From the NCBI GenBank assembly GCA_028583605.1, contig CM053330.1, forward strand, positions 24,268,129 to 24,332,128: a stretch of DNA of 64,000 nt, in the 5' to 3' direction. Below the pieces are notes generated by a model. That model was not told the DNA's origin. It saw only the letters and a program-made list of their open reading frames with translations, and made no database searches. A program made the position numbers and the translations under genes. Positions 10,709 through 58,400 of this stretch are shown here, in pieces. Positions within the stretch are counted from its first letter, which is position 1. Every line of letters starts with the position of its first letter. Source of the stretch: Dastarcus helophoroides (lineage: Eukaryota > Arthropoda > Insecta > Coleoptera > Bothrideridae).

Positions 10709-11815
10709 TTATAACCTTGAAAAATGTTGTCTTATTATTAATTCGCGAAAGTGACGTGCATTGTTGCAATTTTCTTCAACCAAAAGATTTTCATAATTAT
10801 CTTCCAAATTTACACCATCCTCAGGATATACGTCATTCATTTCCAAGGCAATGTTGTGAAGGACAGCGGTTGCTACAATTATATCCATGACTACATTTAA
10901 CTGTACCCTCATACCGTACCTCAAAATTGGAAAACGACTTTTCCATACTCCATATTGTCTTTCCACAACATTTCGTGTTCTTATAATAGATTCATTAAAT
11001 AAGTTTTCAGCTTCAGTTCTGGTTTCATGTAATTTAGTCATTAAATAAGGCTGCAATGCATATCCGCTATCCCCAATAATTAAAAAATTCCCAAAATGTC
11101 CATCCTCAAATTTTCTTTTCAAGCTGCAATTATTAAAAACTGTCTGGTCATGGACAGAACCTGGCCATCTAGCAACGATGTTTGTTATTTTTAAATTTGC
11201 ATCGCTAACTCTCTGTACGTTCAAGGCAAAAAATCCTTTCCTTGAGCGATATATTTCGGCATCAGCTCCTCCAGGAGAATCAATCCTAATGAGGGTATAA
11301 TCAATTGCTCCTATAACCCTCGGAAATCTAGCAGTTCTATAAAATTCCTCAGATGTTTTCTCCATTTCAGCCCTATGATTGCACATTTTTATATAGCGAA
11401 AACTTAAAGAAGCAATAGATTCTGAAACTTTCTTAATAATTCTAGAAGCCGGCGCCGTTAAAATGCCCATAAAGTCAGTTACAGCAATTTGCATATTGCC
11501 TGATGCATAGAACCTTAGAGTCAATAGTAGTTGATGCAGGGGTTGGATAGCTCCGCCTCTGTAATAAGTTAACAATCATTAAAAATTTCATATTATCTTG
11601 TATAATGTATTATACCTATTCGATAGCAGTTTAATTAAATGTTCAATTTATTGCAATAAAGACTGAACAGTATTTTTCATTAAACGAAATCGTTCAAAAA
11701 AGCTTACATCATCGTAATCGACGAAATAATCTTTTCTATTGTTATATACTTTTGGTCTTCGTAAGTAGATATACACTTCATCGTCAGATGAACTGAAATT
11801 CGAAGAGGAAAACAT
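10709..11815 (-). pseudogene. Harbinger (HARBI1-like) transposase, one nonsense codon
   Basis: DDE_Tnp_4-type transposase. Exon 1 runs 11815-11616 from ATG; exon 2 runs 11558-10709, joined across a 57-nt GT/AG intron in phase. Exon 2 contains the acidic triad context: GAIDYTLIR (first Asp), WPGSVHDQTVF (second Asp) and VVERQYGVWKSRFP (Glu). A premature TAA falls in exon 1 near 11658, just before the IEHLIKLL segment; the rest is open. The partner SANT gene lies convergently downstream. It is therefore a recently inactivated copy. Confidence 0.88.
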
Positions 11816-17860: not shown

Positions 17861-18908
17861 TATCTATGAATTAAAAATCTAAATTTTAAAATGTTCATTA
17901 ATAAATCAAGTTTAAGTTTTCGAATTTTTAAAGTTAATACTCGAAAAGCTTTTCTAAAAATGGTTATTTTTCAGTCAAAATTTGGGTTTTTGCAAAATGA
18001 AAATATCTAAATGAATTTTTAAATATAATTGTATCGTATCTCTGAAGCATACAAATGCAAAATTAATTTGTGAGATATACCATATACCGCTGAAATCGCC
18101 TAACTATACTCTGTTCACCCAACACATATAGTTAGTTATAAAAAAAGTGCGATATTTGAATAAATCGTTTCTATTGGATTTCGTTGAAAATCTCGTATTA
18201 CACCCCAAAACAAGTTTGGTCAGGTCGAATCATTAGTAATGTTGATTTATTTCTTGACTATCGTGTGAAACTGTCTGTTTTTGAGGGGGAGTGACATAAC
18301 TACATCTGTTGGGTAACAATGTAGTTACAAAATTGTTTAGTCATTTGTCTCATCCATGTTAATTTATTCTATGCAATAGATGGGTAATTATGTTGCAATG
18401 CGATACATCGATTTTTTAAACATCGCTTATAAATTAATAAGGTCGAAACTAATAATTTTTGGTCAAAACTTTGAAAATTATAAAACTTACTTAATAATAG
18501 TTGGTCATTACAGAAAAAATATTGAAAAAATTATCACCAAGAAATTAGGGTGAGAATCAGGGGTTGAAATTCTAACTAATTTAAAAAAAATAATCCGGAG
18601 ATAATTCGATCTAAAAGTAATGCAAAATTAGTGAAACAATTAGTTTTTTGAAAAAATGGAGTGTAGTAAGGGGTATCAAATGATACTGAGTCAAATTGAA
18701 TCAGTCGTTGACTCCTAAAAGGGAAATTTCTCTCATCTGCATCATTATGTTTAAAGCGCAGCTAGGCGCAGCCAAAATTTGTAGAACTTTTAAGTCCATA
18801 CTTCATTCAATATAAAAAAAATATGAAAAGGCTAAGGTTTGTTAAAGTAAATATAAAACAAACAAAAATATTAATTTTGCTGATTTTGCTACTCGGATGT
18901 CTGATACC
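17861..18908. other. Unassigned AT-rich interval
   Basis: No gene recognised. A partial inverted pair with TTCACCCAACA near 18116 and TGTTGGGTAAC near 18307 hints at an old small transposon; it is too diverged to bound. Confidence 0.4.
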
Positions 18909-19322
18909 TTTTAACTGATGAGATAATAAGCCTTGTATATACGAATATATACAAGTTTATTGATGCAATTGAAATCCAATTTCATTAGAATCTAATGAAA
19001 ACTAGACTGCAATTGCAAAGTTTACGTAGATGAGGCAAAGCTTAGTATGACGGGTTGCTTCGCAACATCCATAGATACAAACGTCCTCGGTGTGACTTTA
19101 CTTTCATCTAGTTTTGACAAACCAATTAAGTGTTCTATTAGACGTGCTTAAAATTGAAAATATGTACAACCGCAACCATAAACTAGTTTCGGCTTTCCTT
19201 GGCCTCATCAGCATGGTACGGTGGTTGTATACACTTCCAACTTAAAGCCATTAGTCAGTCGTATAAGTATCCAAGAGAGCAAACCTCCATTGGGTGACAT
19301 GTCAAATCTTTTAACTGATGAC
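18909..19322 (-). repeat. Hammerhead-bearing repeat, copy 1
   Basis: About 400 bp, one unit opened between modules X (18923-19120) and Y (19150-19305) and flanked by the overlap CTTTTAACTGATGA at both ends. Module X holds a perfect hairpin, CTTGTATATA-CGAA-TATATACAAG at 18932-18955, and a second palindromic stretch with GCAATTG arms. Module Y holds the ribozyme. The copy at 56498-56970 has the modules in the opposite order. Confidence 0.9.
19161..19234 (-). ncRNA. Minimal type I hammerhead ribozyme, copy 1
   Basis: On the minus strand the order is stem I strand ending ACCAUG, then CUGAUGAG (19211-19204), stem II GGCC / loop AAGGAA / AGCC (one C-A mismatch), GAA, then the self-complementary ACUAGU as a minimal stem III, U17, and the stem I return strand UAUGGU. 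Predicted cleavage is between 19181 and 19180 (GUU site). All invariant core positions (CUGANGA, GAA, A15.1-U16.1) are present. Stem I extends outward with bulges (ACAA/UUGU, CCGU/GCGG). Confidence 0.85.
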
Positions 19323-24302: not shown

Positions 24303-24343
24303 AGTGTGCTTACTAAAAAATGTTTAAAACTTTCTGTGGTACT

Positions 24344-24349
24344 TTATTT
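24344..24349 (-). terminator. AATAAA polyadenylation signal of regucalcin B
   Basis: AATAAA on the minus strand, 16 nt past the stop codon, with the flank GAGTAAATAAAGTACCACAG. Copy C has the same block. Confidence 0.75.
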
Positions 24350-24364
24350 ACTCAGGCTTCTTAT

Positions 24365-25751
24365 TTACAGTTTAAAGGAAGCTCCAGGTAACCCTTTCAC
24401 TTTCAGCCCCGATACTTTATACGTAGCTCCATTTGTTGGGCGAGGCAATACAACATCATTGATTACGTAGGATCCAGTGGTCACGTAGAGTTCATCAAGA
24501 TTGGGGCCTCCAAACGCAACGGAAGCAGTCTAAAAAAGATCCATTTAGGGTGTCCAACATTAACATAAAAGCAACCAACCTGCTTGGTTGGCATAGGAAT
24601 TGTATCCAAAAGCGTTTCTGGTCTTCTGGGATCGATTTTGAATACTTGATAGCCATCAAAATTGGCCACCCACAGATTTCCCTCAGTGTCAATTGTCATT
24701 CCATCTGCTAAACCAGTCATATTATGTTTGGAGAGGGTAAAGATCACTTTACCGTTACCTACAATTGTGTTAGATTAGTAATGTTTTCTGTCGTGGTAGT
24801 GATCGTAGCTTTACTAATAGTTCCTTTGATGATATCAAAGTCATACTGATCGACAGTTCCTTTTGTGGAATCGATGTAATACATGTATTTATCATCAATA
24901 CTCCAAGCCAAACCGTTTGAGATACCAATACCATCTATATGTCTCACAACTTTTCCGCTCTTGTCGATGCTGTACAAATACGACGTAAGTGGTTTATCGT
25001 GGCCCTTTTTAGGTTTGTCTCCAATAAGAAAAGCAGGGTTACCAAGTCCTAAAAAAATTGCTCGTAAAAATGAATCAAAATATCTTACAAAATGGAAACC
25101 TATGCTAATTTTGCATACAATTAATATACATGTATCCTAAAAATATTTGGCCCCTGAGAAATCCCTCTTAAATTTAAAAGTTTAAAGTAACAGAGTTTTG
25201 TAAAGATTACCTGTCCATAATCGGCCCGACGAGTCGCATTTTCCATCATTCAACATCAAACCCTTAAACTTTATGGGATCTTCAATTTGAGCAAACTTTT
25301 TGAACGCTGATATTTTATCGCTAGTACCGTCCCAAGTGATCAGATTTAATTCTAAATCGGTACCAATTATAAATTGATCTTTTTTTCCTTCCACCGGTAT
25401 AATGTAAGTAACATGTTCAACATCCATTCCCTCCAATTTGGCTTGGAAACATTCGTTAGTTGCCGGAACGTATCTCTGGATTGTATTCCCATATATATCG
25501 GCGAAGTAGAGACTTTGCTTGGAAACATCCCAGTGAGGTCCTTCTCCCAACACAACACTATCGGTCACTCTCTCAATTGAGAATTTCGTTTTTCCACTAG
25601 CAACAGAATGATGATGTTTTTGTGTGGCTAATTTGCAATTATGACTCGGTATTTTGCCTGCCGAACATGTAAGCGCAGTAACGAGTAGCAGTGCAAGAGT
25701 CACTCCACAGCATCCAAACGGTGAAAGCATCTTTAAACCCATTTTGCTCAT
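24365..25751 (-). CDS. regucalcin: Secreted regucalcin/SMP30-family protein, copy B
   Basis: Four coding exons, 25751-25211, 25048-24815, 24758-24580 and 24529-24365, with GT/AG borders, in-phase joins and no stops, give 372 residues. The 56-nt intron 24759-24814 is supported by the restored ISNGKVIFT block, matching SNQ in copy C. Start is the first of three close ATGs. The N-terminus has a hydrophobic core (residues about 14-30) followed by CSAG, a likely signal peptide that copies A and C lack. Family metal-site contexts are kept: GEGPHWD (E70), NDGKCD, SNGLAWS and a DGMTID block. SMP30-family proteins are metal-dependent lactonases; the firefly luciferin-regenerating enzyme belongs here. 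The substrate of this protein is unknown. An acceptor-like TTTCAG 56 nt upstream of the ATG fits an upstream noncoding exon. Confidence 0.92.
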
Positions 25752-35451: not shown

Positions 35452-38278
35452 TATTTTTTAAAAATGTCATAATTTTATTTTAAATTAATTCGTTGATTTT
35501 GCGGATTTCATATCTCCCCAGTTCCTATCTAATTGGTTTGGTAAAAAGAAATGGAATGACACCAAATTCAAAATTAATTCATAGCAGGTTTAAATATCAC
35601 CATTTATTAAAAATAAAAAAATAGATTTCAATAATGAATTAATCTGCAAAAAAATTGGGCTACGGCTTATCGTTTGGTCGCTAAAAGCGTTTAAAATGTT
35701 ACTATTTTCAAAAGTTGAAAATTGTTATCAAATTTCATTTAGAAGTTTTTGATACGTGGGATTCAAATTTAGAAAGAAAATTCAGTTATGATTTTTTGTT
35801 TGGGGTCATGAAAGTGTTTAAAATTAGCACAATACAACACAATTAATAAAAATAAATAACGAGCTATTGCTGTATTATTAAGGGCAAATTTGAACTGAGT
35901 ACGTATTTTTTTTCTAAAATTTCGACTGAAGACATCAATTTTTTAGAATTCAAAAAATATATAGTTTTTTTTATTGTAAGTTTAAATTCAAACCAGATGT
36001 CGACTTTTTTTTTAATTTAAACTTTGAATTCTAAATTTTTGGGAACTTTATCTTTTTTGTTAATCTTAAAATGTAGACGTAGGAGGCCTAAATTTAACAC
36101 GGCCTTTTAACAGAAGATTATGGAATTTATATTATTAACTTTCCTTTGTAATTCGTTGTCATTATGGACCGATTTTCAAGCAAAAAGGGGAATCGTCCAA
36201 CGATTTCTTCGGGACCGGGACTCTTGGAGCCGAAAGCAACACTTAAATGTCTTCATGTTTGCATAACCTAATACCTCAACATTGTTTTGTTTTCCTCGAT
36301 TTCCGATTGCATGTTGTGGTGCAACTCCTGAATTATCTGGCGATGTCAAAGCCGCTTGGAAATAAACAGAAAAGGGGTTTACATTATGATTTGAAAATAT
36401 AATTTTTTTGGTGTAAATATAGATTTAAACAAATTTTTAATCTTGAATTTATATGACTCATTTTTCCTCCTCTAAAATCAATGACATTATGTCTAAAACA
36501 GCCGGTATGAGATACATTTATAAAATACCTTTTTGTAAAAAAAAAATATATTTCAACTTTCAAAATGACTTAGTGACTTAGAAGTCAGAAACTTTTTACG
36601 GCCCCCTATTTTTTATTTTTGTAGGACAGTTGTCAAATATCAATAACAAAAAATAATATCCATCATGTAATAGTGGACCCATTTATCGCATTAATTACTC
36701 AGCATATCAACTAAAAAAATCCAAATTTCAAAATTAAAATCATAATTTCACAAAAAGTTTGAAAATTACAAAAATTAACTTTAGGCTACTTCTAGAAAAA
36801 AGGTATTTTGAGGTAAAAATCAGAATTTTCCAAAAATTCAAATGTTTAGAGCTTCGAAATTTAGACTAAAAATTTGAAAATTTTGAGAAAAATGTGGAAC
36901 TCTTTAGATTTAGCCTAAAATTATAACAAATAGTTTTAGGTTTATAATCGAAATCTAAAAAAGAAGTAACAGTTGAAAGCGTAAAGTGAGATTATGTAAA
37001 AAAGTTTTTCAAAAAAAACCTAATTTATATTAAAATAAGTGCCCTTTCTAGTTGACAATCGAAGTTTGGTAAAAAAAGGAGAATTTTGCAATACATTCAG
37101 AATTATTATAAAAACTGTAAGGTTTAAAACTAAACCCGTAAAATTTGTCAAAAAATCTCAAATTTAAACTTAAAATTTAGAGAAAAAAATAAACTTTAGG
37201 TATTAAGTTTGACATTCCGAAATAAAATTAAAATTTCTATGATGGAAACTTCGAGATAAAATACATGATTTTAGGAAGAGAAATAAAGATTTAAATGAAG
37301 ACTGGGATAAAAGAATTTTAAAAAAATCTAATAAAATTTTAATCCAAGCACAGAATATTTTGGGTAAAAATTTCAAAAGAAATGAACAGTTGTAGAAAAA
37401 GGCCAAAATTTGGAATTTCAAATCGAATTTTTAAGTAAAATCAAATTTTGATAAATAAAACCATGATTTATAAGGATTCTTGTCATTTTAAAGGAAACTT
37501 TTTGACTTTTTCTACATTTTCATTCCGTATTTAACAGGCGTAGAGTGGGAATTTTCAAAAATCTTTTATTAGTTACATAAGGAACTCATGTGCAAAATTT
37601 TAGCCTTTTAAACCCATGAACTTTTCTGTTAGTGTTTAGAATTTTATTAAGTAGATTTTTTAATTTTTATAAAAAGTTTTTACTAAATACCATTATTTTT
37701 TTAAATATATTTTTATTCAAAATTTTAATATCAATCTCAGTATTTTCAGATACTTTGACTATTTTTTTAAATTGCGCTTTTAATCTTGAGATGTGAACTT
37801 TTTTCCTGAACTTTAGAATAAATATTTGTTATTAATATCAAGCCTCTACTCTGAATTGCGTCAAAGAAAAATTTGTGAAAGGGCCCATTTCGCAGGAAGG
37901 TCTTTGGCAGCCTTCATAGCTACGCCAGTGACTTTCACCTCTGATTTGGATGTTATTAAAAATAAATTTCAAACCCCAATTTAAAGATTTATAATTTTAC
38001 AAAAAATGAAGCCCCTCATAGCCTAGAATGAGCACCGAAATATCTAAATTCACACACATATAACAAGGTGACAAGGAACACTTTTATAAAAACAGAATAA
38101 ATTTAGTTATATCTGGAGGAAAATAAGTATTCTTTTAAATTTTATACAATCATACGAATAAAAAATTAGACTCATAAGAATTGGCCATATTCTATTCCAT
38201 GTTGCTAATCTTATAAACTTCATTCTTGCGGTAATGGTCAACTTTCTCATTCGTCAGGACTAAAATCTCCTGTGGTAC
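35452..38278. other. Intergenic DNA between mariner and regucalcin C
   Basis: No gene recognised. 36700-37490 is A/G-rich repeat sea. 36160-36370 is clearly less AT-rich and non-repetitive; on the minus strand a short open stretch with VAPQHAIGNRG is visible but matches nothing I recognise. Confidence 0.4.
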
Positions 38279-38284
38279 TTTATT
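38279..38284 (-). terminator. AATAAA polyadenylation signal of regucalcin C
   Basis: AATAAA on the minus strand, 17 nt past the stop; the surrounding GAGTAAATAAAGTACCACAG block is shared with copy B. Confidence 0.75.
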
Positions 38285-38300
38285 TACTCAGGTTATTAAT

Positions 38301-39384
38301 TTACAGTTTAAAACAAGCTGCTGGCAATCCTTTCACCTTCAGTCCCAAAACTTTATACGTAGCTCCATTTTCAGGATGAAGTAACTCAACACCATCGACT
38401 GCAAATGATCCAGTAGTCACGTAAAGTTCATCCAGATTGGGGCCGCCAAACGCAACGGAAGTGGTCTGAAAGAGATCCAATTAGGGCACCCAACATTACT
38501 TTAGAAACAACCAACCTGCTTGGCTGGAATAGAAATTGTTTCCAAGAGTGTTTCTGGTTTTCTGGGATCTATTTTGATCACTCTATAACCGTCAAAGATG
38601 GCCACCCATAGATTTCCCTCAGCATCAGTGGTCATACCATCTGGCAAACCAGATATATTATGCTTGGAGAGGGTAAAAATCGTTTTTTGGTTACCTACAA
38701 ATATGGAAGATGAGTAAGGTTTTTTTGTGGTGGTGATAGTGATCGTACTAATAGTTCCATTGATGATATCAAAATCGTATTGGTCTACCGTTCCTTTTAT
38801 GGAATCGATGTAATACATGTATTTATCTTCAAGGCTCCAAGATAAACCGTTAGAGATACCAATATCATTGAGATGTTTCATAGTTTTGCCGCTGTTGTCG
38901 AAACTGTACAACGACCCCATAAGTGGTTTATCTTGGCCTTCCTTAGGTTTTCCTCCAATCGTTCCTGTAATAAAATACAATTTCTCCAAGTTTACGCTTA
39001 AGTGGATTTACCTGTCCATAATCTGCCTGAAGAGTCGCATTTTCCATCATTTAATAACAAGCCATCAAAATGTGTTGCATCTTCAACTTCAACTAATTTT
39101 TTTAACGATGCTATTTTATTACTGCTTCCATCCCAAGTAATCAAGGCCAACTGCAAACCGGTGCCAATTATAAATTTATCTTTTTGTCCATCTACTGGAA
39201 TAATGAAAGACACGTGTTCAATCCCTTCCAATTCGGCTTTAAAACATTCCTTAGTTGCCGGAATGTATCTCTGGATTGTCTTCCCAAATATATCGACGAA
39301 GTAGAGACTTTGCTTGGAAACATCCCAATGAGGTCCTTCCCCCAATGTAAAACTATCCGTTACTCTCACAACAGACGATTCCAT
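38301..39384 (-). CDS. regucalcin: Regucalcin/SMP30-family protein, copy C
   Basis: Coding exons 39384-39012, 38964-38749, 38694-38516 and 38465-38301 splice in frame to 310 residues, close to the roughly 300 residues usual for regucalcin and luciferin-regenerating enzyme. The 54-nt intron 38695-38748 is a multiple of three and open, so it is easily missed; removing it restores the family block ISNQKTIFT. Metal-site contexts are intact: GEGPHWD (E16), NDGKCD, SNGLSWS and LPDGMTTD. The exon ends KGLPAACFKL and stops. No signal peptide with the ATG at 39384, so it is probably cytosolic. TTTTTCTAG six bases before the ATG looks like an acceptor, consistent with a noncoding first exon at 39983-40065. 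It is about 75 percent like copy B by eye, much closer than to copy A. Confidence 0.93.
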
Positions 39385-40922: not shown

Positions 40923-42177
<1,255 letters not shown>

Positions 42178-42383
42178 TTACCAAATTAGAAAAAATTGAG
42201 AAAAAGGAAGAGATTTCGAAAAAATTGAAAAAAAGGAAGAGATTTCGAAAAATATGAATTTATCGAAAGTTCTCAATAAAAGGTTAAATTTTTTAACACC
42301 GTAAAATTTCGACAATAGATTTAAATCCAGGACAATTCAAAAACCTGAAACTTTTAGACAATTTTTAATTTTTTAAAATATAG

Positions 42384-42747
42384 TGTAACGCAATGTAAAT
42401 AGACGAAATAGGATTTAGAATAGAATTGTAGAATTTAGTAAATAAAAAAAGTTTCTAGAAGGTTCTGATAAGGGGAAAGCGGCCGCGATAACGAAACAAA
42501 CGGCAGATAAGCGTTCCAGAAATTTCGGCATTCGATAAGCCTTATCTGCCGAAAATTCTGGAAGACGCGGGCCGAAACTATAAAAAGGCGGTCACTTTTC
42601 CCTCGAGTCAGTCAGTTAGAATCAGTGCAATTACTAAGTTAGTAGAAGTGAGTTAATTGTAAATTGTGGTGATTCAAGTTGAGTTCAGTAATAAAGTGGG
42701 AATAAATCCATCACGTGTATCAATTCGAACCGATAACGCACGTAACA
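42384..42747 (+). repeat. 5' LTR of gypsy element
   Basis: TGTAACGCAATG...CGTAACA. It contains TATAAAAAGG near 42590, AATAAAG near 42690, and an 11-bp inverted pair CGGCAGATAAG/CTTATCTGCCG at about 42500-42552. Confidence 0.95.
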
Positions 42748-42749
42748 TC

Positions 42750-42767
42750 TGGTGTCAGAAGCGGGAT
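42750..42767 (+). other. Primer binding site, tRNA-Leu type
   Basis: TGGTGTCAGAAGCGGGAT, two bases after the 5' LTR. It is complementary to a CCA-ended tRNA-Leu 3' end, as in many gypsy elements. Confidence 0.75.
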
Positions 42768-42903
42768 TATTCGTGGATTGTGCTTTATTACTCGAAAAAA
42801 ATTCGTGCCAGGTGCCGTAATTGGCTTTATCTCGGACGTTTTAAACTGTTAAATAGTTATACGAGGCGCGTCAAGTAAAATCTTGAACATTCAGATACGC
42901 TTT

Positions 42904-44376
42904 ATGGATACGAGATTAAAATCGGCCAAAATGGAACAACAAATGCAAGCATTATTAGCAATGTTTAAAGACCAAGCAGAACAAAGACGGCAAGGAAAAG
43001 AACAGGAGGAAGAAAGAAGGCGACAAGACGAAGAACGAAGACGACAAGAAAAAGAACAGAAGGAAGAACGAAGACGACAAGAAAAAGAACAGGAGGAAGA
43101 ACGAAGACGACAAGAAAAAGAACAAGAGGAAGAACGAAGACGACAGGAAAAAGAACAGGAAGAAGAACGAAGACGACAAGAAAAAGAACAGGAAGAAGAA
43201 CGAAGACGACAAGAGGAAGAACGAAGACGACAAGAAAAAGAACAGGAGGAAGAACGAAGACAACAAGATGAAGAACGAAGACGACAAGAAAAACAAGAAT
43301 TGCATAGTCTACTAGCAAATATAACTGAAAAAATGGGAGTAGACGTTGAAAAAATGAAAGAAGAAGTGAAAGAACAGATTACAGGAATGCGAGAAGAAAT
43401 GCAGGAAGAGATTGGCGAAGTCAGGGAAGAAATTGGAGAAGTAAAAGAAAAATTCAACAGCAAGCTTCTTGATTTGGAAAATACAACACAGAAAAAGTTC
43501 AGCAACATCGAAAAAAACATGAAGAAGTTGCTAAGTGGACAAGTCACACAACACGAATCCGAAAGTGTACCCGCTATCTCTTCCCAAAAAGTGAAACCTC
43601 CGACCTATGATGGGAAAACATCCTTCCAGACCTACAGAAAACAGTTCGAAGCTGCTGCTAAGGCAAATCGGTGGACGGAAGAAGCAAAGGCAACCTCATT
43701 AGTGGTATCCCTGCGCGGAGATGCTCTGGAATTACTCCGAACTCTATCGGATCAAGAACAAGCCAATTATGAAGATCTAGTTAGGGCTTTAGAGCTGAGA
43801 TTTGGGGACCAACATTTGCAGCAAGTTGTCCAGTCGCAGCTGCTAGTAAGAAGACAGAAAAGTGGAGAAACGCTGCAAGAATTCGAGGCTGACGTTAGAA
43901 GATTGGCGTACATCGCCTATCCAACAGCACCAACCGACTTTCTGGAACTCCACGCAGTTAGAATCTTCATAGAAGGAATAAGAGATCCGGAAGTTCAGAG
44001 AGTGATACGCCTATCAAACGTCCGAACATCAAAGGAGGCACTGATAAGAGCTTTGGAGGTTGAAGCTGCTTACAAGGTTTCAGAGCCAGGGGCGCCACGG
44101 AGAATTAGGAAGGCTGACATCGAAGAGGCTACGAATGACCCTGATCTGGCGAACTTAAACACCAACATGAAGGAAATGAACGCGAACATAAAGAAGATGG
44201 ACGGGAGCATAAGCGCTAACATACAGGAAATGAACGCGAGCATCAAAGAACTGGTAGGAACTCTTAAAGGCAGATCCAACAGAAGCACATGTTACAACTG
44301 TGGCAAACCGGGGCACTTCAAGAAGGACTGCAGATTAGCCCCAAGAAGTCGACAAGCCTCACAACAGGAAAACTAA
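42904..44376 (+). CDS. gag: Gypsy Gag polyprotein with charged coiled coil
   Basis: 490 residues from the first ATG in frame. Residues about 20-140 are an extreme Glu/Arg/Lys/Gln-rich coiled coil built from near-identical 11-residue units (EEERRRQEKEQ), about eight in a row. A second coiled coil has EVREEIGEV repeats. Then comes a capsid-like helical domain (about residues 230-400, with PPTYDGKTSFQTYRKQF and LQEFEADVRRLAY) and a single CCHC zinc knuckle CYNCGKPGHFKKDC (463-476). Structural protein of the retrotransposon particle. It overlaps pol by 88 nt in the -1 frame. A GGAAAAC at 44367-44373, just before the stop, is a possible but non-canonical slip site. Confidence 0.93.
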   Translation: MDTRLKSAKMEQQMQALLAMFKDQAEQRRQGKEQEEERRRQDEERRRQEKEQKEERRRQEKEQEEERRRQEKEQEEERRRQEKEQEEERRRQEKEQEEERRRQEEERRRQEKEQEEERRQQDEERRRQEKQELHSLLANITEKMGVDVEKMKEEVKEQITGMREEMQEEIGEVREEIGEVKEKFNSKLLDLENTTQKKFSNIEKNMKKLLSGQVTQHESESVPAISSQKVKPPTYDGKTSFQTYRKQFEAAAKANRWTEEAKATSLVVSLRGDALELLRTLSDQEQANYEDLVRALELRFGDQHLQQVVQSQLLVRRQKSGETLQEFEADVRRLAYIAYPTAPTDFLELHAVRIFIEGIRDPEVQRVIRLSNVRTSKEALIRALEVEAAYKVSEPGAPRRIRKADIEEATNDPDLANLNTNMKEMNANIKKMDGSISANIQEMNASIKELVGTLKGRSNRSTCYNCGKPGHFKKDCRLAPRSRQASQQEN

Positions 44377-47300
44377 AATCAGCCAGTGGGAAGGGGCACT
44401 CACTGGCTGGTGTCGAGCAACGAGCCCCCAAAACTCTTTCCATCAAACAGATAAAAAGGACCATGGAAAGTTTAGTGGTGGCAGCCAGCGTAGATGGAAG
44501 GAATGTACAGGCAACAGTGGACACAGGCGCCATGGTTACTTTGGCACGAAGGAACATCCTACCGTCGCAACCGAAGGTACTGTCGCAAAGAATGGTCCTC
44601 AGAACAGTTACGGGAGATACTGCGCCAATTATAGGAGAGGCAGACGTCATGATTGGTCTGGGAAAATTAAGGATTTCGCATCGGGTGTTGGTGGCAGATA
44701 TCGAAGACGAACTGATTCTGGGGATGGACGTAATCAGGCAACATGGCTTTACTTTCGATCCAGCGCAGAACATTTTAAAGATTGGAAATGAGGAGCTTGT
44801 CCTGACTACACCAAAGGACACTCCAAAGGAGGTAAGACTGTTTGCCTGCGAAACAGCTGTAGTGCAGGGAAGCAGCGAGAAGACGGTTATGGCTGTGATG
44901 GAAGGAGATTTGGGCTGCTGCGTTGGATTAGTGGAACCGACTTATGACATTTCCAAGAATTTGCTAGTGACGAGATCCGTGGTTAAAGCATCTCAGAAGG
45001 TACCTGTGAGAGTTGCCAATGTGTTCCCAACAGCACGCTCAATCAAAAAGGGTACTACTCTGGCAGTCTGTACCCCGGTAGCCTCAATAAGCTCCTTGGG
45101 AGACAGTTGTGCGCCAGTACAGGAAACAAAGATTGGGCAAGTCAAGTTGGAAGTGGACTTGAAACACTTGTCCAAGGAAGAATTAGTTCTGGCTAGGTCA
45201 TTTCTAAAGAAAAACCACGGCGTTTTTACCGATGGAGACCGAAATCTAGGAAGGACCGACGTAGTTCGACACAAAATCAACACCGGCGATGCAACACCTA
45301 TTCGTCAACCCCCTAGAAGATTACCGGTGGCCAAGCAAGAGGAAGTCGCGGGACTGGTTAAGAAGATGATGAAGGATGGAGTCATCGAGGAGTCCAATAG
45401 TCCATGGTCTTCCCCTGTAGTCTTGGTTACAAAGAAGGACGGGTCAACAAGATTCTGTGTCGACTACCGGAAATTAAACGACGTCACTAAAAAGGACAGC
45501 TACCCCTTGCCAAGAATTGATGACACCCTAACGACCTTGTCTGGGTCCACCTGGTTTTCAACTTTGGACTTGAAAAGTGGATATTGGCAAGTGAGCATAG
45601 ACCCCGACGACAAAGAAAAGACGGCCTTTTCATCTGGGAGTGGATTATATCAGTTCACGGTTATGCCTTTTGGACTATGCAACGCACCGGCTACTTTCGA
45701 ACGTCTAATGGAACTGGTACTTCGAGGACTCACTTGGAAAACCTGCTTGGTTTACCTAGATGACGTCATGGTGATGGGCAAGAGCTTTAAAGAACATTTG
45801 GAAAATCTTCAAGAAGTTTTCGACAGATTAAAGCAAGCCAACTTAAAGCTGAATCCAAAGAAGTGCTCTTTGTTCCAAAGGAAAGTAGAATTTTTGGGTC
45901 ACACTGTATCAGCCGCAGGAGTTGAAACAAATATCAGCAAGACTCAAGCAATTCGTGACTGGCCAAGACCCAAAGACAAACATGAACTGAGGAGTTTCTT
46001 GGGGCTGTGTACCTATTACAGAAGATTTGTGAAAGGTTTCGCCAACATCGCTGCGCCGTTGCATCAACTAACGGAAGGAAGAAGGCCGTTCGTCTGGACT
46101 CCAGACTGTGATACCGCTTTCCGAAAATTGAAGTCCGCCTTGTGTACAAGCCCTATCTTGGCGTATCCTCAGCAGAATGGGAAGTTCGTGTTAGACACTG
46201 ATGCCAGTAACATCGGCATTGGGGCTGTGCTGTCCCAAGTTCAAGGCGTTGAAGAAAGAGTCATCGAATATTACAGCAAGATCCTGACGAAGCCAGAGAG
46301 GAACTATTGCACCACCAGGAAGGAACTTCTTGCGATAGTGAAGGCCGTGGAACACTTCCACAAGTACTTGTATGGGCAAGAATTCCTTATCAGGACAGAT
46401 CATTCGGCACTTTCTTGGTTACTCCGAATGAAGAACGCGGAGGGACAGACGGCTAGATGGTTAGAAAGGCTTCAGCAGTATCACTTCAAGGTGCATCATC
46501 GACCGGGACGACAGCATAACAACGCTGACGCTTTGTCCAGAAGACCTTGTGGTGATTGCAAACACTGCAAACGAGTTGAGGACCATGAGGACATGGTGGA
46601 TATAAGGGTCACTTCTCTCCAGCCAGAAGACGAATGGACTGTTGAAGGCCTTCGGAAGCTACAGAGGAGCGACGCTGATATCGGACCCATATTGGAATGG
46701 AAAGAAGCTGGAGACAGACCGGAATGGCAAGAGGTTTCCGACAGAAGTCCAGCTCTTAAGAATTTGTGGGCTCAATGGAAATCCCTCCAGGTCGAGGACG
46801 GAGTACTGAAGAGAGCATGGGAAAGCGCGGATGGAAAGCGTGTCAACTTGCAGTTGGTGGTGCCTCAGGAGAAGATTCCACAGGTCTTGTGGGAGGTGCA
46901 CAATGGGACCTCTGGTGGACATCTAGGGATGAACAAGACCCTGGAGAAGGTTCGAAAACGATTTTATTGGGTTAACTGCAGGGAGGACGTCGAGCGGTGG
47001 TGTCGGAAATGTGTCACCTGTGCTGCATCCAAGGGTCCTCGTACGAGAACCAAAGGGGCCCTGAAGCAATATAATGTGGGAGCTCCATTTGAAAGAATTG
47101 CAATCGATGTGGCAGGACCATTCCCAGCTTCAGACGATGGAAACAAGTACATCCTGGTGGCCATGGATTATTTCAGTAAATGGCCTGAGGCTTATGCCAT
47201 CCCGAATCAGGAAGCCACCACAGTCGCAAGGGTTCTTGTGGACAACTTCATCTGTCGATTTGGTGTTCCCTTAGAACTGCACTCGGACCAGGGAAGGAAC

Positions 47301-47945
47301 TTTGAATCGGGGGTTTTCCAAGAGGTGTGTCGTCTTCTTGGAATAAGGAAAACTCGAACAACACCTCTTCATCCACAGTCTGACGGAATGGTGGAGAGAT
47401 TTAACAGGACCTTAGAGGAACATCTTTCGAAGGTCGTTTCCAAACATCAGACCGACTGGGACCGACATCTACCACTGTTTCTGATGGCCTATCGCGCGGC
47501 AACTCATGAAACTACAAGTCAGACCCCGGCAAAAGTGATCTTCGGGAGGGAACTGCGGCTTCCATGTGACTTGGTGTTTGGATCACCAAGGGAGGTCCCC
47601 AGGGAAACGATGGGTTTCGTAGATGACTTGAGGGAAGCGATACTGGAGACGCATGCTCTGGTGCGGACGAAGATCAATTTGGCGACGGACCGGATGAAGG
47701 CCAGGTATGACGTGAGTGCCAATCATGGTGGTTTTAGTGAGGGCGAGTTGGTATGGCTATACAACCCTCAGCGAAAGAAAGGAGTTTCGCCAAAGTTTAC
47801 GCCATCTTGGGAAGGGCCGTACAAGGTGCTGAAGAGGATCAACGACTTGGTATACAGGATCCAGCGTAGCTCCAGGAGTAAAATGAAAGTGGTACACCTG
47901 AACAGACTATGCAAATTTAGTGGCGAAGTGACTGATTGGAACTGA
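44289..47945 (+). CDS. pol: Gypsy Pol polyprotein (PR-RT-RNaseH-IN)
   Basis: An open frame of 1218 codons in -1 frame to gag, presumably made by -1 frameshifting in the overlap. Aspartic protease has VDTGAMVTLA (D78). RT has FCVDYRKLN and the catalytic YLDD (489-492). RNase H has LDTDASNIG (D636). Integrase has a zinc site starting at H871 and ending CVTC, then the catalytic D940 (IDVAGPFP), D1000 (SDQGRNF) and E1036 (VERFNRTLEEH), spacing D-35-E. A GPY-like WEGPYKVLKRI module and HLNRL motif close the C-terminus. All catalytic residues are present and no stop interrupts it. Confidence 0.96.
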   Translation: MLQLWQTGALQEGLQISPKKSTSLTTGKLKSASGKGHSLAGVEQRAPKTLSIKQIKRTMESLVVAASVDGRNVQATVDTGAMVTLARRNILPSQPKVLSQRMVLRTVTGDTAPIIGEADVMIGLGKLRISHRVLVADIEDELILGMDVIRQHGFTFDPAQNILKIGNEELVLTTPKDTPKEVRLFACETAVVQGSSEKTVMAVMEGDLGCCVGLVEPTYDISKNLLVTRSVVKASQKVPVRVANVFPTARSIKKGTTLAVCTPVASISSLGDSCAPVQETKIGQVKLEVDLKHLSKEELVLARSFLKKNHGVFTDGDRNLGRTDVVRHKINTGDATPIRQPPRRLPVAKQEEVAGLVKKMMKDGVIEESNSPWSSPVVLVTKKDGSTRFCVDYRKLNDVTKKDSYPLPRIDDTLTTLSGSTWFSTLDLKSGYWQVSIDPDDKEKTAFSSGSGLYQFTVMPFGLCNAPATFERLMELVLRGLTWKTCLVYLDDVMVMGKSFKEHLENLQEVFDRLKQANLKLNPKKCSLFQRKVEFLGHTVSAAGVETNISKTQAIRDWPRPKDKHELRSFLGLCTYYRRFVKGFANIAAPLHQLTEGRRPFVWTPDCDTAFRKLKSALCTSPILAYPQQNGKFVLDTDASNIGIGAVLSQVQGVEERVIEYYSKILTKPERNYCTTRKELLAIVKAVEHFHKYLYGQEFLIRTDHSALSWLLRMKNAEGQTARWLERLQQYHFKVHHRPGRQHNNADALSRRPCGDCKHCKRVEDHEDMVDIRVTSLQPEDEWTVEGLRKLQRSDADIGPILEWKEAGDRPEWQEVSDRSPALKNLWAQWKSLQVEDGVLKRAWESADGKRVNLQLVVPQEKIPQVLWEVHNGTSGGHLGMNKTLEKVRKRFYWVNCREDVERWCRKCVTCAASKGPRTRTKGALKQYNVGAPFERIAIDVAGPFPASDDGNKYILVAMDYFSKWPEAYAIPNQEATTVARVLVDNFICRFGVPLELHSDQGRNFESGVFQEVCRLLGIRKTRTTPLHPQSDGMVERFNRTLEEHLSKVVSKHQTDWDRHLPLFLMAYRAATHETTSQTPAKVIFGRELRLPCDLVFGSPREVPRETMGFVDDLREAILETHALVRTKINLATDRMKARYDVSANHGGFSEGELVWLYNPQRKKGVSPKFTPSWEGPYKVLKRINDLVYRIQRSSRSKMKVVHLNRLCKFSGEVTDWN

Positions 47946-47962
47946 TCGGGACGATCATTTCT

Positions 47963-47975
47963 AAGGGGGAGGCAG
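47963..47975 (+). other. Polypurine tract
   Basis: AAGGGGGAGGCAG directly before the 3' LTR; the plus-strand priming site. Confidence 0.85.
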
Positions 47976-48339
47976 TGTAACGCAATGTAAATAGACGAAA
48001 TAGGATTTAGAATAGAATTGTAGAATTTAGTAAATAAAAAAAGTTTCTAGAAGGTTCTGATAAGGGGAAAGCGGCCGCGATAACGAAACAAACGGCAGAT
48101 AAGCGTTCCAGAAATTTCGGCATTCGATAAGCCTTATCTGCCGAAAATTCTGGAAGACGCGGGCCGAAACTATAAAAAGGCGGTCACTTTTCCCTCGAGT
48201 CAGTCAGTTAGAATCAGTGCAATTACTAAGTTAGTAGAAGTGAGTTAATTGTAAATTGTGGTGATTCAAGTTGAGTTCAGTAATAAAGTGGGAATAAATC
48301 CATCACGTGTATCAATTCGAACCGATAACGCACGTAACA
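47976..48339 (+). repeat. 3' LTR of gypsy element
   Basis: 364 bp; no difference from the 5' LTR found by eye. Confidence 0.95.
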
Positions 48340-52434: not shown

Positions 52435-55400
52435 TCAGTCGTCGTCTTTTTTCTCCGGCTTGAGGTCCACCATTGCGTGCAGCTCCTCTGGACTGTATCT
52501 GGAACAGGGTCACTAGTTAGAGAAGTGATAAAATTACATAGAAATTGGATTTTAGAATTTAATCTTTTCATGTGCCATATTTTACAATACAACTAAAATG
52601 ATGTATGTTATTTAGGGAGGCCGAAAAATCTCAAATTTCATCAAACTCTTAAAATTTAAAAGATTTCCACAAAGTTTTGCATTTAATTTCGAGTTATTTG
52701 GTATATTTTCGACTTTTTTTGGTAGATTTTACTTTTGAGAAATACAGCTTTTTTATATTTCTCAAAAATTTTGAGAGTAGTCAATTTTTGTAAAGAAATT
52801 TCCTTTTGTTATATTTGATGAATTTCTCAAAATATTGACTGATTTTTATGATCTCCGGCAGAAAGTTTCGATATAGATTAAAATTTTAAACTTTTTAGTA
52901 AATATTCACAAAATTTAGAGCTTTTAACGCTAAATGTCGACTGTTTTTTGTAAATTTGGAGTCATCTCTTTTCATAACTAATGTTTAACTACTTTTTTAA
53001 TTTTGATATATTTACGGGGAAGGACTCATATACTAAATTTTTGTCCCATTTCTAAACATTTTAAACTGAAATCCCAGATTAAGATTTTTGAGGAAATTTT
53101 CAAGTGTTTTATATAAAGTTTCAATGGATTTATTTTTCATAAAATTTCTTTTTTAAACAATTCCTGATTTAAAAACAAATACTTTGACTTTCTGAAACCA
53201 CCTATTTTTTTTAGGAATATCCACCTTTTTCTAAATCCATTCTTTTCTTTCATGTTGTTGAAATACAAATCTTGTCCGCTGAAGCCAAGAAAGATTAAAA
53301 AAACACAACAAAGGTTGCTCTAACGCGTTTCGATAGCCAAACTATCATTTTTGGAGAGATGATCAGAAGATACTCTGAATATGATAGGTTGGCTATCAAA
53401 AGGCGTTAGAGCAATCCTTTGTTGTTTTTTAATATTTCTTGGTTTCAGGGACAAGATTTGTTTTTCAATTTTTGAAGATAACCAAGGACCAGTCCGTTCC
53501 GCCAAAAAAATCATGTTGATGTATCTCAAATTTATAATCTCAACTATATTTTTTCCAAAATTTCGCAATCAGAGCCACGATTATGATCATTCTTTGAGAA
53601 GTTTTCAGTTTTGTAAGTTAATAATTTCAGCAAATTTTCCAACAATTTCTTTTTATTATCTAAATTCGTTTCCTCTTCCAGAAATTTTCGATTTTGGTGC
53701 AAAATTTCGACTGCCTTTGTGATTTTTCCTTAATTTTCTGCTTTTAACTAATTTTCAGGAATTTCGGTTTAAAAATGCTCCTCTTTTTTGGTTGTTTTTC
53801 TCAACATTTCGATACCCTTACAAAGTTTAACTCCAACATTTTAGTTAGATATTCAGCAAATTTGAAATTTAAAACCAAAATTGTTCCTTTTTTGAAATTT
53901 TCAGATTTGTCAGTAAAATATTTAACAGGTGTCTAAAAAAAAAATATTGAAGTCAGACCTTTTTATTATGCGGCCATCTGAGAAATTTTAACCTTTACCT
54001 TCAGATTTAACTTTTTCTTGACTTTGACACAAAAATTACTCAAGGAAAGTCATGATTTCAAGAAAAGGTCAAAATTTATAAAAAATTAGGATACCTTAAG
54101 CCAAACGTAGAAATTTCAATTTTTTTCTGAATTTCGATCATAAGTCAACAATAAAACTTCGTAATTATTACTTTTTTCTTTAAATTTTGACTGAAAATTC
54201 AAAATTTGAAGAAAACAATATAATTGAAAAAAGCCAAGAAACTAGAGAATACGTTCAATTTCGAATTAAAAGTTTTAATTTCGAGTTTGAAATAAAATTT
54301 TATAAAAAAGAAAACTATTAAAAAAATTAACATTTCAAGCTGAAGGTCGATATGCTAGGACAAAATAGAAATTTCCAGTTAAAGAGTAAATTTGCAAAAG
54401 GAATTACGCAAAAAAAGTTAAGATTTCAAGAAAAAAGTCAAATTATAAAAAATTATAAGACTTTCAGCCAAATGTAGAGATTTCAATTGTTCCTAAATTT
54501 CGATTTTAAACCCAAAATAAGAACCTCGAGATTTTTTTCCCTAAATGCTGATTAAAAATCCAAAATTTGACAAAGTTGACATTTAAAAACAATCAAGAAA
54601 CTAGAAAAAAATGTCCATAATTTGCATTAAAAATCTAAATTTCGAGTTAGAACTCAAAATTTTAACAAAAAAGTAGGATTTTGAATTTTTCTAAATCCCA
54701 AAAAAGTCGACATTCCAAATTTAAAATAGCAAGAAGAAAGTTACAATTAGACTCTAGATTAAAAAAATGTAATTTTGACTTTTATCCATATTTAAATATT
54801 TTCGGGTTTACATCTAAAATTATCTGAATAAAGTCGAGATTTCAAAGATAAAAATCAGATTTATAGAAAAATTTGAAGACTGGGTCAATTGTAGAAGTTC
54901 GAATTTTTTACTCTGAATCTCATTTGGGAACCCCAAAATAGAAATTTTGACAAAAAAAAAGATCAAAGATACGGATGCAAAAACCCCAAATTGTAAAGTA
55001 AATATCAAAAAAAAAAACAAACTAGAAGTTCTAAAATTACAAAAAAAAGTGGAAAATTCCAGGAAAAGTCAAAGTTTAAAGAAAAATGGTGACAGCTATA
55101 AATCCAAATTAAAAATCGAACTTTTGAAGGAACAGTTTTGACATTCTATATTGCTATATAGTTTAAATTAAAAAATTAAGAAATAGAAATTGTAGGTTTA
55201 AATTCAAAATTTTTAAAAATGTCGAATGTTCGAGTTTATTTAGCAATTTTAACTTTGTTTCCAAAATGTTGGCTTTAAATGCAAAATTTATGTGGTAATA
55301 ATGCATTTTAATTTTTATTTCGAGATTTGAGTTCTCGATTTTAAATTCAATATTCTGAGAAAAAGTCGTTTCGAGAAAAAATCGAAGTCAGTTGAAATCT

Positions 55401-58400
55401 TTGATAAAAACTGAAATTTCAATTTCAAGTTGAAAGTTTAAAACATATAATTTCGATTTTAATCTAGAAATTTCGTGTTCTCAATTTTCAACCTCCATGC
55501 CGCGATTTAAGTTTTTTTTCTTTGCTTTAAATAAAAAAAGTTCAAAAAATATTTTTGAGAAAAAATCCCAAATTTTGGTAAAACGTTAAATTTTGAATTG
55601 AAATGACGGAAGAATTGTGATTTAAAGATAAACATATAGAACTTTTAATTTTATTCTTGGATTTTCACTTTCCAACTAGTAATATAAACTTTTACTAGCG
55701 GAAATTTCACAAAAAAAGTCGAAAATCGAAAATTCCAAATTCGGAAAAAATTTAAGTTTTGAAAAATTAAATTAATAGCAGTTAATTTGGAATTAAAAAC
55801 TTAAAATTTTAAGGAAAACAACGGACATTATGTGTTTAAACTCTAAATATGAAGGATAGCGTAAACATTTCAATGTGATCAACAAGTTGAAATTTTAAAG
55901 AAAAAATCGCAATCTTCAATTTGTAAAAGTTGAAACTAACTTAATTCTTAAATTTTCAATGAAAAATGCAATTTTTGTTTTACGTAAGTAGACGCTTTGA
56001 GTTTAACAAAATTTAAAGCAAAAAAATCAATATCTTGAAAAAAAGTGTCATTATTCAGTTTCCAAATTAAATGCCCTGAAAGGATCGGTTGCTAGAACAA
56101 TACTCACCCAAGGAGCGTTTGTAAATCACAAACGAAACGATACACGTAACGCTTTCCGGCAGTCTTGTGGATGATATTCTTATCATAATAGTAGCGCAAT
56201 CCCCTCGACAATTTTTCGTAGTTCATTTTTGGCTTATTCTTGCGTATGCCCCATCTACGGGCCACTTCATCAGGATCCGTCAGCTTGAACTCCCAACCGT
56301 CCCCCGTCCAAGAGATAAAGCCCTGACAGGATTTATCGGTAAGTAGTTCTAACAAAAACTGCCACAACTGTATTGGTCCCGAACCTAAAATACGAAAAAA
56401 AGAAAAAATGAAAATTGTCTTCTGTTATTTTTCAAATATAATTATTGTTAGTTTGGTGATTCGGTTTTATTGTGTTCAAATTTTGTCTAACTGCTTCTGA
56501 CCAATTAAATGTTCTGTAATTAAACAGTTAAACGTGCTTAAAATTGAAAATATGTACAACCGCAACCATAGACTAGTTTCGGCCTTCCTTGGCCTCGTCA
56601 GCATGGTACGGTGGTTGTATACACTTCCAACTTAAAGCCGTTACTCAGTCGTATAAGTATCCAAGAGAGTAAACCTCCATTGGGTGACTTGTAACTGACT
56701 ATTAACTGTTTATTACGCAAACATTTTCGCTACATGCTAATTGAAGCATTCTTCTCTACTGAGATAATAAGCCTTGTATATACGAATATATACAAGTTTA
56801 TTACGATGCAATTGAAATCTAATTTCATTAGAATCTAATGAAAACTAGATTGCAATTGCAAAGTTCGCGTAGATGAGGCAAAGCTTGTATCACGGGTTGC
56901 ATCGCAACATCCATAGGTACCAACGTCCTGGGCATGACTTTGCTTTTATCTAGTTCGACAAATGACCAACTATAACTGCTTATGGGTATAAATAATAGTT
57001 ACCTAATACATAAAACATTCTCAAACACGGCGAAAGATTAGATGTTTCACTGATAATTTATTAATAGATGTTTTACTGATAATTTATTAAATTCTTAACT
57101 AGTTGAAACTGATCAAGTCCAATATAAAAAAGTTGTCCTTGAGGATGGACCAATCGTCCGAAGTCGATAAACTTGAGTAAACCATACGATACTGATAAGG
57201 CTAAGGAACGCCGAAACCGGCGTTATGTAGTATATAGTTGTTATATGTGAACATTTTCAACTGTAGCAAGTTCAACTGTTTCATTACAGAACTTTTAATT
57301 GACATTATTTATACTAAGACTAACATACCTAAACGTATGTCGAGCCGAGGGCGCTTGCATTTAATGAATGTTACTAAGCAATTCATAATACAAGAAAGTT
57401 TAATCACTAGTAGTGACTTTTGTGACTTAAGTTACACGTACTACATAACACGAATGTAATTCATAACTATCAAACTTTATTTACGATTAAAAAACAACAG
57501 GTATTAACAATTCCACAATTTGGATTAGAAATATTCGTAGGAGTCTGTGATCCATGGAGCTTGTTAGCATAACAACGGCTAAACAAATTGCCGGTATAAC
57601 CGCCGATGATGCAGTAATGCGAAACTTGTTCCAGTGTTAGCAAATATTTATCGAAACATTGTGGAATTTTTAATACTTGTTGATTTTTAATCGTTAATAA
57701 AAGTTATTAATTAAAGAATTCCACGAAATAAGGGTTGAAAATGTCAGTTACGAATGTAATTCTCAACAATAGTTGCTTCAATTCGCACATATAGCAAAAT
57801 GTTCCTAGTAAGATGCAATCGAAAGTCAAATAATCACTCAATGGGATTTAGATTTCTGGAATATTTATGTGGCTAACTAACTACTATAAGTTGTTACAGC
57901 CATTTTACGCCTATCATACTGGTGTCGAAAGAAAAGTCGAAACCGATATGTGGTTGTTGGTTGAAAATATTTTCAACTGTAGCATGCCCGACTAGAATAT
58001 TTAATTGAACTCATAACCAAGTTATAGTACAAAAAAAAAAACAATTTCTCCCTCATATTTCACTTGTGTTCATAAGTAAATGAAATGAAGAGTTATGTAA
58101 ACAATATGGTTACAGTTAATTTATGTAAATATGAGTAGAGTTTTTAATGAATGCAAATGTATACAAAACGGATTGGTAAAAAAATCTCTATAACATTAGA
58201 ATGATACGTACATTCATTAAAATATAAAAAAAGAAACAATGCCTGGCAGCCATTGTTTTGTAGCCTTGAACTGGCAGAAGCTGATTAGCTCCCGCGTGAA
58301 CATACACTAATAAATCGTTACACTGTAAGATCTAAAAACTGTTGATTACACTCGATTTTTTCATCAAACCATCCATGAGTAAAACTGAAGAACTTACCCG

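Follow-up and report, generated by a model that had tools for sequence, protein, structure and literature searches.

The genome of the beetle Dastarcus helophoroides contains dispersed copies of a short non-coding repeat with a hammerhead ribozyme, which are probably an animal retrozyme copied from circular RNA by the machinery of Penelope-like elements (PLEs) with two internal start sites, here called P and Q. Its copies show these two starts, 5′ ends spread uniformly over the ring, target-site duplications, and head-to-head twins whose two arms end at different start sites (heterotypic twins), together with a signature that resembles that of the PLEs resident in the same genome.

An earlier note, made from a stretch of 64,000 nt of contig CM053330.1 (the window), had described two blocks of this repeat, X and Y, whose order is reversed between the copies at 18.9 kb and 56.5 kb when both are read on the plus strand. 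Self-comparison of the window bears this out: on the plus strand, X links positions 18919-19121 with 56760-56962 (91% identity, E 4e-75), and Y links 19138-19317 with 56528-56708 (93% identity, E 9e-71). With the ring numbered in the RNA sense and U1 set at the predicted cleavage point, the copy at 56.5 kb (copy B, 56498..56969, minus strand) is a P-type insertion of one 465-nt ring plus 7 nt, having its RNA-3′ end at 56498 (U73) and its 5′ end near U64; the Q site inside it is a small predicted hairpin, TCTC-AGTA-GAGA (U273-284), at 56753..56764 on the minus strand. The copy at 18.9 kb (copy A, 18919..19307, minus strand) is a Q-type insertion with its RNA-3′ end on the left, at about U277-281; part of the ring between about U278 and U345, some 50-65 nt lying between Y and X, is missing. 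The order of the blocks is permuted because copy B started at P and copy A at Q. The description of each copy as just over one unit fits copy B but not copy A, which at about 400 nt is less than one ring. As for the reported overlaps at the ends, TGACCAA does occur twice in copy B (56498-56504 and 56963-56969), whereas CTTTTAACTGATGA of copy A is mainly a target-site duplication (18908..18921 and 19308..19321) like those of other copies; only the last bases of its left repeat belong to the element end as well. Copy B is itself flanked by a target-site duplication of 9 bp, TAACTGCTT, at 56488..56496 and 56973..56981, against a background of flank matches of at least 9 bp in 8 of 398 mismatched controls. 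A third copy, C (57181..57301, plus strand, 73% over 122 bp), is an old degenerate relative that covers the ribozyme and the P region; copy B lies some 200 bp away from this older member of the family and has the opposite orientation.

The window has 11 open reading frames of 150 aa or more; none of them reaches into copies A, B or C, and the element encodes no reverse transcriptase or GIY-YIG domain. Other features of the window include a Gypsy-type LTR retrotransposon (42382-48339) with identical 366-bp direct repeats (42382-42747 and 47974-48339) and long gag-like and pol-like frames; its identical repeats and long open frames indicate that it is probably a recent insertion. A RuvB-like frame (TIP49 C-terminal; 40959-41594, minus strand) adjoins this element. 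Two blocks about 80% alike (24325-25576 and 38261-39371) with SMP-30/regucalcin-like frames (SGL domain) represent a local duplication, and a DDE_Tnp_4 transposase frame of 288 aa is found at 10712-11575 on the minus strand.

The perfect stem II and the GUC site attributed to copy B are both present, with a stem II of 4 bp and the core on the minus strand; a plus-strand hammerhead was considered and rejected. The type I motif including stem I spans 56548..56620 (minus strand) in the predicted fold and matches the Rfam HH9 model with 22.7 bits (E 0.006), which is less than the curated gathering score of 52; the Rfam scan of the window gave no match at gathering score. The core, CTGACGA-GGCC-AAGGAA-GGCC-GAAAC-TA-GTC, occupies 56571..56601 on the minus strand, with predicted cleavage between 56571 and 56570, and includes a palindrome, ACTAGT, at 56572..56577 (minus strand). 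The hammerhead of copy A (19181..19211, minus strand) is damaged, with a C:A mismatch in stem II and a GUU site. A search that tolerated up to 5 substitutions found 140 ribozyme motifs in 81 genomic places; 135 of them have an intact core, 133 have the GUC site and 135 carry the ACTAGT palindrome. The intact cores may mean that cleavage matters, or the copies may simply be young.

In the predicted fold of a single ribozyme, stems I and II form and helix III does not. Two ribozymes can be folded together through ACUAGU into a 6-bp helix III at -67.0 kcal/mol when the core is kept unpaired; the unconstrained dimer is predicted to prefer another fold, at -69.2 kcal/mol, by about 2 kcal/mol. Cleavage confined to dimers would cut multimers and keep a ring with one ribozyme closed. 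The circular fold predicted for the whole ring is rod-like (z -8.5 versus 60 shuffles). In the unit that serves as ruler, the loops of P (U78-84) and Q (U277-280) belong to small hairpins, and these share one predicted multiloop in 51 of 66 natural units and not in the other 15, the units being related and the count not equivalent to 66 independent tests.

The family was sampled in the 539-Mb genome (50 contigs), where the first look gave 2034 and 2043 candidates, as distinct from verified copies, for the two window copies. For each of three queries, 40 candidates were scored. Two of these were permuted at P or Q, and the third, end-neutral one (U157-257) contained neither end and found 29 distinct places, 10 already in the set and 19 new. 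The resulting 89 copy loci include 8 repeats of the same place and reduce to 81 distinct places (62 through the permuted queries and 19 through the end-neutral one), which are the best-scoring copies only. Compared with one chosen unit of 466 nt and 37% GC, most segments show 96-99% identity; tandem copies repeat with a period of 466 nt, and the head-to-tail units that the earlier note had proposed to look for are present, up to about four turns of the ring. The flanks of the insertions are AT-rich (30% GC), but so is the window, and no target preference is shown.

Of the 81 insertions, 37 lie between target duplications of 11-16 bp (12 bp in 18 and 13 bp in 10), and none of 398 mismatched flank controls shows one of that size; the other 44 insertions have no duplication of at least 11 bp, and 21 of these have no match of at least 7 bp. 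For some insertions the joined flanks match relatives of the uninterrupted target, as for L088, whose joined flanks align with window positions 53253-53464 and where the extra duplication appears as a gap. These observations weigh against the other origin allowed by the earlier note, a tandem hammerhead satellite sampled at random breakpoints without retrotransposition. Head-to-tail units are what a satellite would contain, and satellites are where animal hammerheads first became known, according to the available part of PMC7229834. However, the copies are short dispersed insertions with target duplications and with relatives of their uninterrupted targets, they have two fixed 3′ end sites and head-to-head twins, and no long array occurs among the 81 places, where the longest segment is 1922 nt. 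As the main process, we assign this origin an almost negligible probability.

The ends of the copies are distributed in a markedly unequal manner. The RNA-3′ ends of 115 segments fall at P in 59 cases (U68-92), at Q in 53 (U266-294) and elsewhere in only 3, so these two intervals, which make up 11.6% of the ring, take 112 of them. The 19 places recovered with the end-neutral query behave alike, with all 26 of their segment 3′ ends at P (12) or Q (14). The 5′ ends, on the other hand, are uniform on the ring (KS p 0.91). Only one of 113 lies within 5 nt of the cleavage point, a point that 100 of 113 segments cross; a linear monomer cut by the ribozyme was rejected as the template on these two counts. 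Segments measure from 50 to 1922 nt, with 74 of 115 longer than one turn and 8 longer than two, one of the latter (L074) being broken up. In this census L056 and L060 were counted as singles and L074 as one segment; on closer reading, L056 is a twin with ends at U98 and Q, L060 is a P/Q twin, and L074 is in pieces. No A-tail was found at the mapped element ends. The idea that reverse transcription began at different points of the circle is thus partly supported: the 5′ ends are scattered, whereas nearly all the RNA-3′ ends sit at two fixed sites. By the criterion of the earlier note, a circular origin would be refuted if the two ends were fixed and identical in most copies; here the result is split, with fixed 3′ ends and scattered 5′ ends.

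Many insertions are twins, in which two segments of opposite orientation meet at their 5′ ends. Among 34 such head-to-head twins, 16 are PQ and 16 QP, none is PP or QQ, and 2 have one unclassified end. Four further twins were recognized, of which L019, L060 and L082 are heterotypic and L056 combines Q with U98, which brings the total to 38: 35 heterotypic, none homotypic and 3 (L004, L056 and L062) in which one end lies at neither P nor Q. Tiny arms of the opposite type, of 14 and 16 nt, were what revealed two of these, L019 and L082, among 45 singles, and none of the 45 has a same-type arm of more than 7 nt. Within a twin, the 5′ end of one arm bears no relation to that of the other: they come within 10 nt of each other in 1 of 34 twins, against 1.5 expected, and this single case, L058, is a misfit. 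Summed, the arms are longer than one turn in 33 of the 34 twins. Since their 5′ ends are unrelated, the twin arms look like two separate cDNAs, not the product of a fold-back.

A similar architecture is found in the PLEs of the same genome. At least 91 GIY-YIG matches occur in the genome, obtained from 150 scored out of 1070 candidates, and at one locus RVT_1 and GIY-YIG lie within a single frame of 417 aa. Among PLE relatives (100 scored of 5508 candidates), copies are up to 97% alike and have open frames of up to 814 aa, and inspection by eye of these 100 revealed seven tight head-to-head pairs and two looser ones. The reading covered five of the tight pairs, L091 in full and the other four through pairs of flanks. 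All five carry a tail of about 35-40 nt on one arm and none on the other, which amounts to two 3′ ends; their duplications are of 12 bp in four and appear as a 15-nt match in the fifth. Twins of retrozyme and PLE in this genome hence share two 3′ ends, one per side, and a like duplication length. They differ in the spacing of the start sites, about 200 nt between P and Q against about 35-40 nt in the resident PLE, and in that the PLE twins are near-palindromic, with arms that start at nearly the same point. The retrozyme twins are not, and a ring has no such 5′ end. A kinship in sequence between P or Q and the PLE start sites was set aside, as no likeness reached significance (the best was equalled by 19 of 300 shuffles, within the PLE 3′ region only). 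By eye, the PLE 3′ region (L097 1-260 and others) has a hairpin resembling stem II, with GAAA and the palindrome TACGTA after it, and CTTGAAAA in place of the hammerhead CTGANGA, possibly a decayed or odd hammerhead; a hammerhead in this region was nevertheless rejected, with no Rfam match at E<=1 in five PLE loci.

The palindromic PLE twins bear on the possibility that head-to-head arms arise by fold-back, that is, by self-priming of a single cDNA or an antisense template, as for rotifer Penelope. Self-priming has been inferred there from palindromes at inverted junctions (PMC3846280, in the text available), and in this genome the whole of the PLE twin L091 (446-2886) forms a nearly perfect inverted repeat, and in six of the seven tight pairs no more than 17 residues separate the starts of the two arms. 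These palindromes look as if both cDNAs had run off the 5′ end of one linear RNA, or as if a cDNA had folded back, and the former could produce them equally; moreover, the outer ends of the PLE twins differ. With the unrelated 5′ ends and the two different outer sites of the retrozyme twins, we give fold-back scarcely any weight for the latter.

A second question is whether twin priming by the reverse transcriptase of a LINE-type (non-LTR) element could mobilize the retrozyme instead. Target duplications of such sizes and 5′ truncation are usual for LINEs. By eye, the window seems to contain a LINE-like reverse transcriptase fragment, in which Pfam reported no family, and an R2 element has been reported to cut both target strands (PMC12222951, in the part available). 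Two internal 3′ ends, the lack of an A-tail and different starts on the two target ends argue against it, and so does the resident PLE, which displays two 3′ ends in all five twins read, together with the 12-bp duplications, the signature having been compared with PLE alone. A LINE enzyme is in our opinion a highly improbable agent, and the machinery of a PLE is the preferred one.

With a PLE as the probable agent, the template could be a circle or a multimer. The variants of the ring were followed at 15 variable sites (minor allele in at least 5 of 76 insertions), with L056 and L060 excluded and poorly aligned segments dropped, which left 72 or 76 insertions depending on the analysis. Within single insertions, 49 of 68 informative insertion-by-site cells show the same variant in all turns and arms (25 of 33 where two arms are compared); when units were shuffled between insertions 200 times, agreement averaged 6% and never exceeded 12%. 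As judged from these variants, each insertion would mostly stem from one template; the discordant cells (19 of 68, and 8 of 33 across arms) may reflect some multimeric templates, editing or later mutation. Reverse transcription of a circle made by the ribozyme, as first proposed, fits the dispersed, multi-turn copies that cross the cleavage point and carry mostly uniform variants, though it had not foreseen two fixed starts.

The most serious competitor keeps the PLE machinery but takes as its template a linear multimeric RNA, transcribed from a tandem insertion already in the genome and left uncleaved. Tandem source copies exist, the discordant cells (for example in L062, L013 and L067) would be natural in such a transcript, and PLE insertion in vitro proceeds independently of ribozyme cleavage and from an internal start (PMC11167929, in the portion available). 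But to serve as template for the 1922-nt segment, a source array would have to contain more than four units, and none longer is present among the 81 places, which are part of the genome's copies; the agreement of turns and arms is far above that of the shuffles, although young arrays would be equally uniform; and the ribozyme core is intact throughout most of the family, as cleavage may matter or the copies may be young. On balance we regard the linear multimer as unlikely, and a circular template as the preferred one.

The variable sites of the ring are also biased in kind. At those with the minor allele in at least 3 insertions, changes in the RNA sense are A/G at 26 sites, C/T at 7 and a transversion at 1. 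Variants common to all turns comprise A>G at 12 sites, T>C at 1, G>A at 13 and C>T at 3, and those not common to all turns are even between the strands. RNA editing or a tolerance of A-U to G-U changes may account for the A/G bias. Editing is kept as a lead, and A-to-I editing was dropped as a firm claim, for several of the sites are linked subfamily variants and the A-U to G-U tolerance explains them equally.

Joining these pieces, we infer circular RNA, an active ribozyme and a PLE protein as the enzyme, in the following cycle. The element would be a non-coding unit of about 466 nt whose transcript bears a type I hammerhead. Transcripts of two or more units would cleave themselves, with two ribozymes pairing through the ACUAGU palindrome, and the monomers would then be ligated into rings, in which the lone ribozyme would form no helix III. 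The PLE reverse transcriptase/GIY-YIG endonuclease would cut both strands of the target with a stagger of about 12 nt, and one or both target 3′ ends would be extended on the ring from the hairpins P (about U76-85) and Q (about U277-282), which lie in the same predicted multiloop; when both ends prime, one would use P and the other Q. The ring would be copied for anything from a partial turn to about four turns, and finally the two products would be joined head to head, or a single product would be joined straight to the other side. For the more specific form of this scheme, a rolling-circle, two-site target-primed reverse transcription in which the PLE complex sits on the one multiloop, the pairing of P with Q is obligate and dimer-only ribozymes keep the circle closed, the chances appear to us evenly balanced.

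Metazoan retrozymes with circular RNA are already known, with insects among their hosts, and PLEs have been called “a strong candidate” in this context (PMC7229834, in the part available). The criteria given there for metazoan non-LTR retrozymes include a size of about 170-400 nt, a low GC content, an occurrence as dimers to multimers, RNA in both linear and circular form, and the lack of LTR, PBS and PPT (Cervera & de la Pena 2020, PMC7229834). As far as the available text of that paper goes, the beetle element resembles them in its type I hammerhead, its AT-rich non-coding unit, its tandem copies, its strongly self-paired circular fold, its target duplications of more than 4 bp and the PLEs in the same genome. 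It differs in its ring of about 466 nt against some 170-400 nt, in a predicted monomer fold without helix III and in having no long array in the 81 places, and the two starts, the heterotypic twins and the matching PLE signature are not described in that text. The hammerhead repeats of newt and salamander, as presented in the same source (PMC7229834), have a likewise very weak helix III with a palindrome, and cleavage is expected from dimers; in their case, however, the stem is of 1 bp with a palindromic tetraloop, and the axolotl has two families of about 60,000 motifs each.

PLEs themselves provide the closest mechanistic parallels. In the available parts of PMC11167929, a lizard PLE cuts and extends both strands, two internal start sites of reverse transcription explain its tail, and in vitro its ribozyme mutants have no effect on insertion, with unprocessed RNA as the main substrate. 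In rotifers, PLE ends stand head to head, one of them may carry a tail, and the duplications measure 8-10 bp but are lacking in some copies (PMC3846280, likewise in part). The beetle retrozyme shares with such EN+ PLEs (PMC3846280, PMC11167929, in the parts cited) the inverted ends, similar duplications, both strands cut and extended and two internal starts, and the optional tail at one 3′ end belongs to this common pattern. Unlike them, it has no protein gene, its starts are about 200 nt apart on a ring instead of about 30-40 nt on a long RNA, and the arms of its twins share no 5′ end. Further related literature, partly available, is found in PMC4918200, PMC7761336 and PMC8490949. In the literature accessible to us, where subscription journals are thinly covered, we found no retrozyme described as having two starts, heterotypic twins or a resident PLE of matching signature.

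The route and the enzyme by which animal retrozymes re-enter the genome are left open in the available text of PMC7229834. Here, a single genome records where copying starts, its direction, the number of turns, the use of both target ends and the size of the duplication, and several of these features agree with those of the resident PLE. The retrozyme offers a defined RNA with two predicted start hairpins, and cleavage only as a dimer may be a simple reason why such rings escape their own ribozyme.
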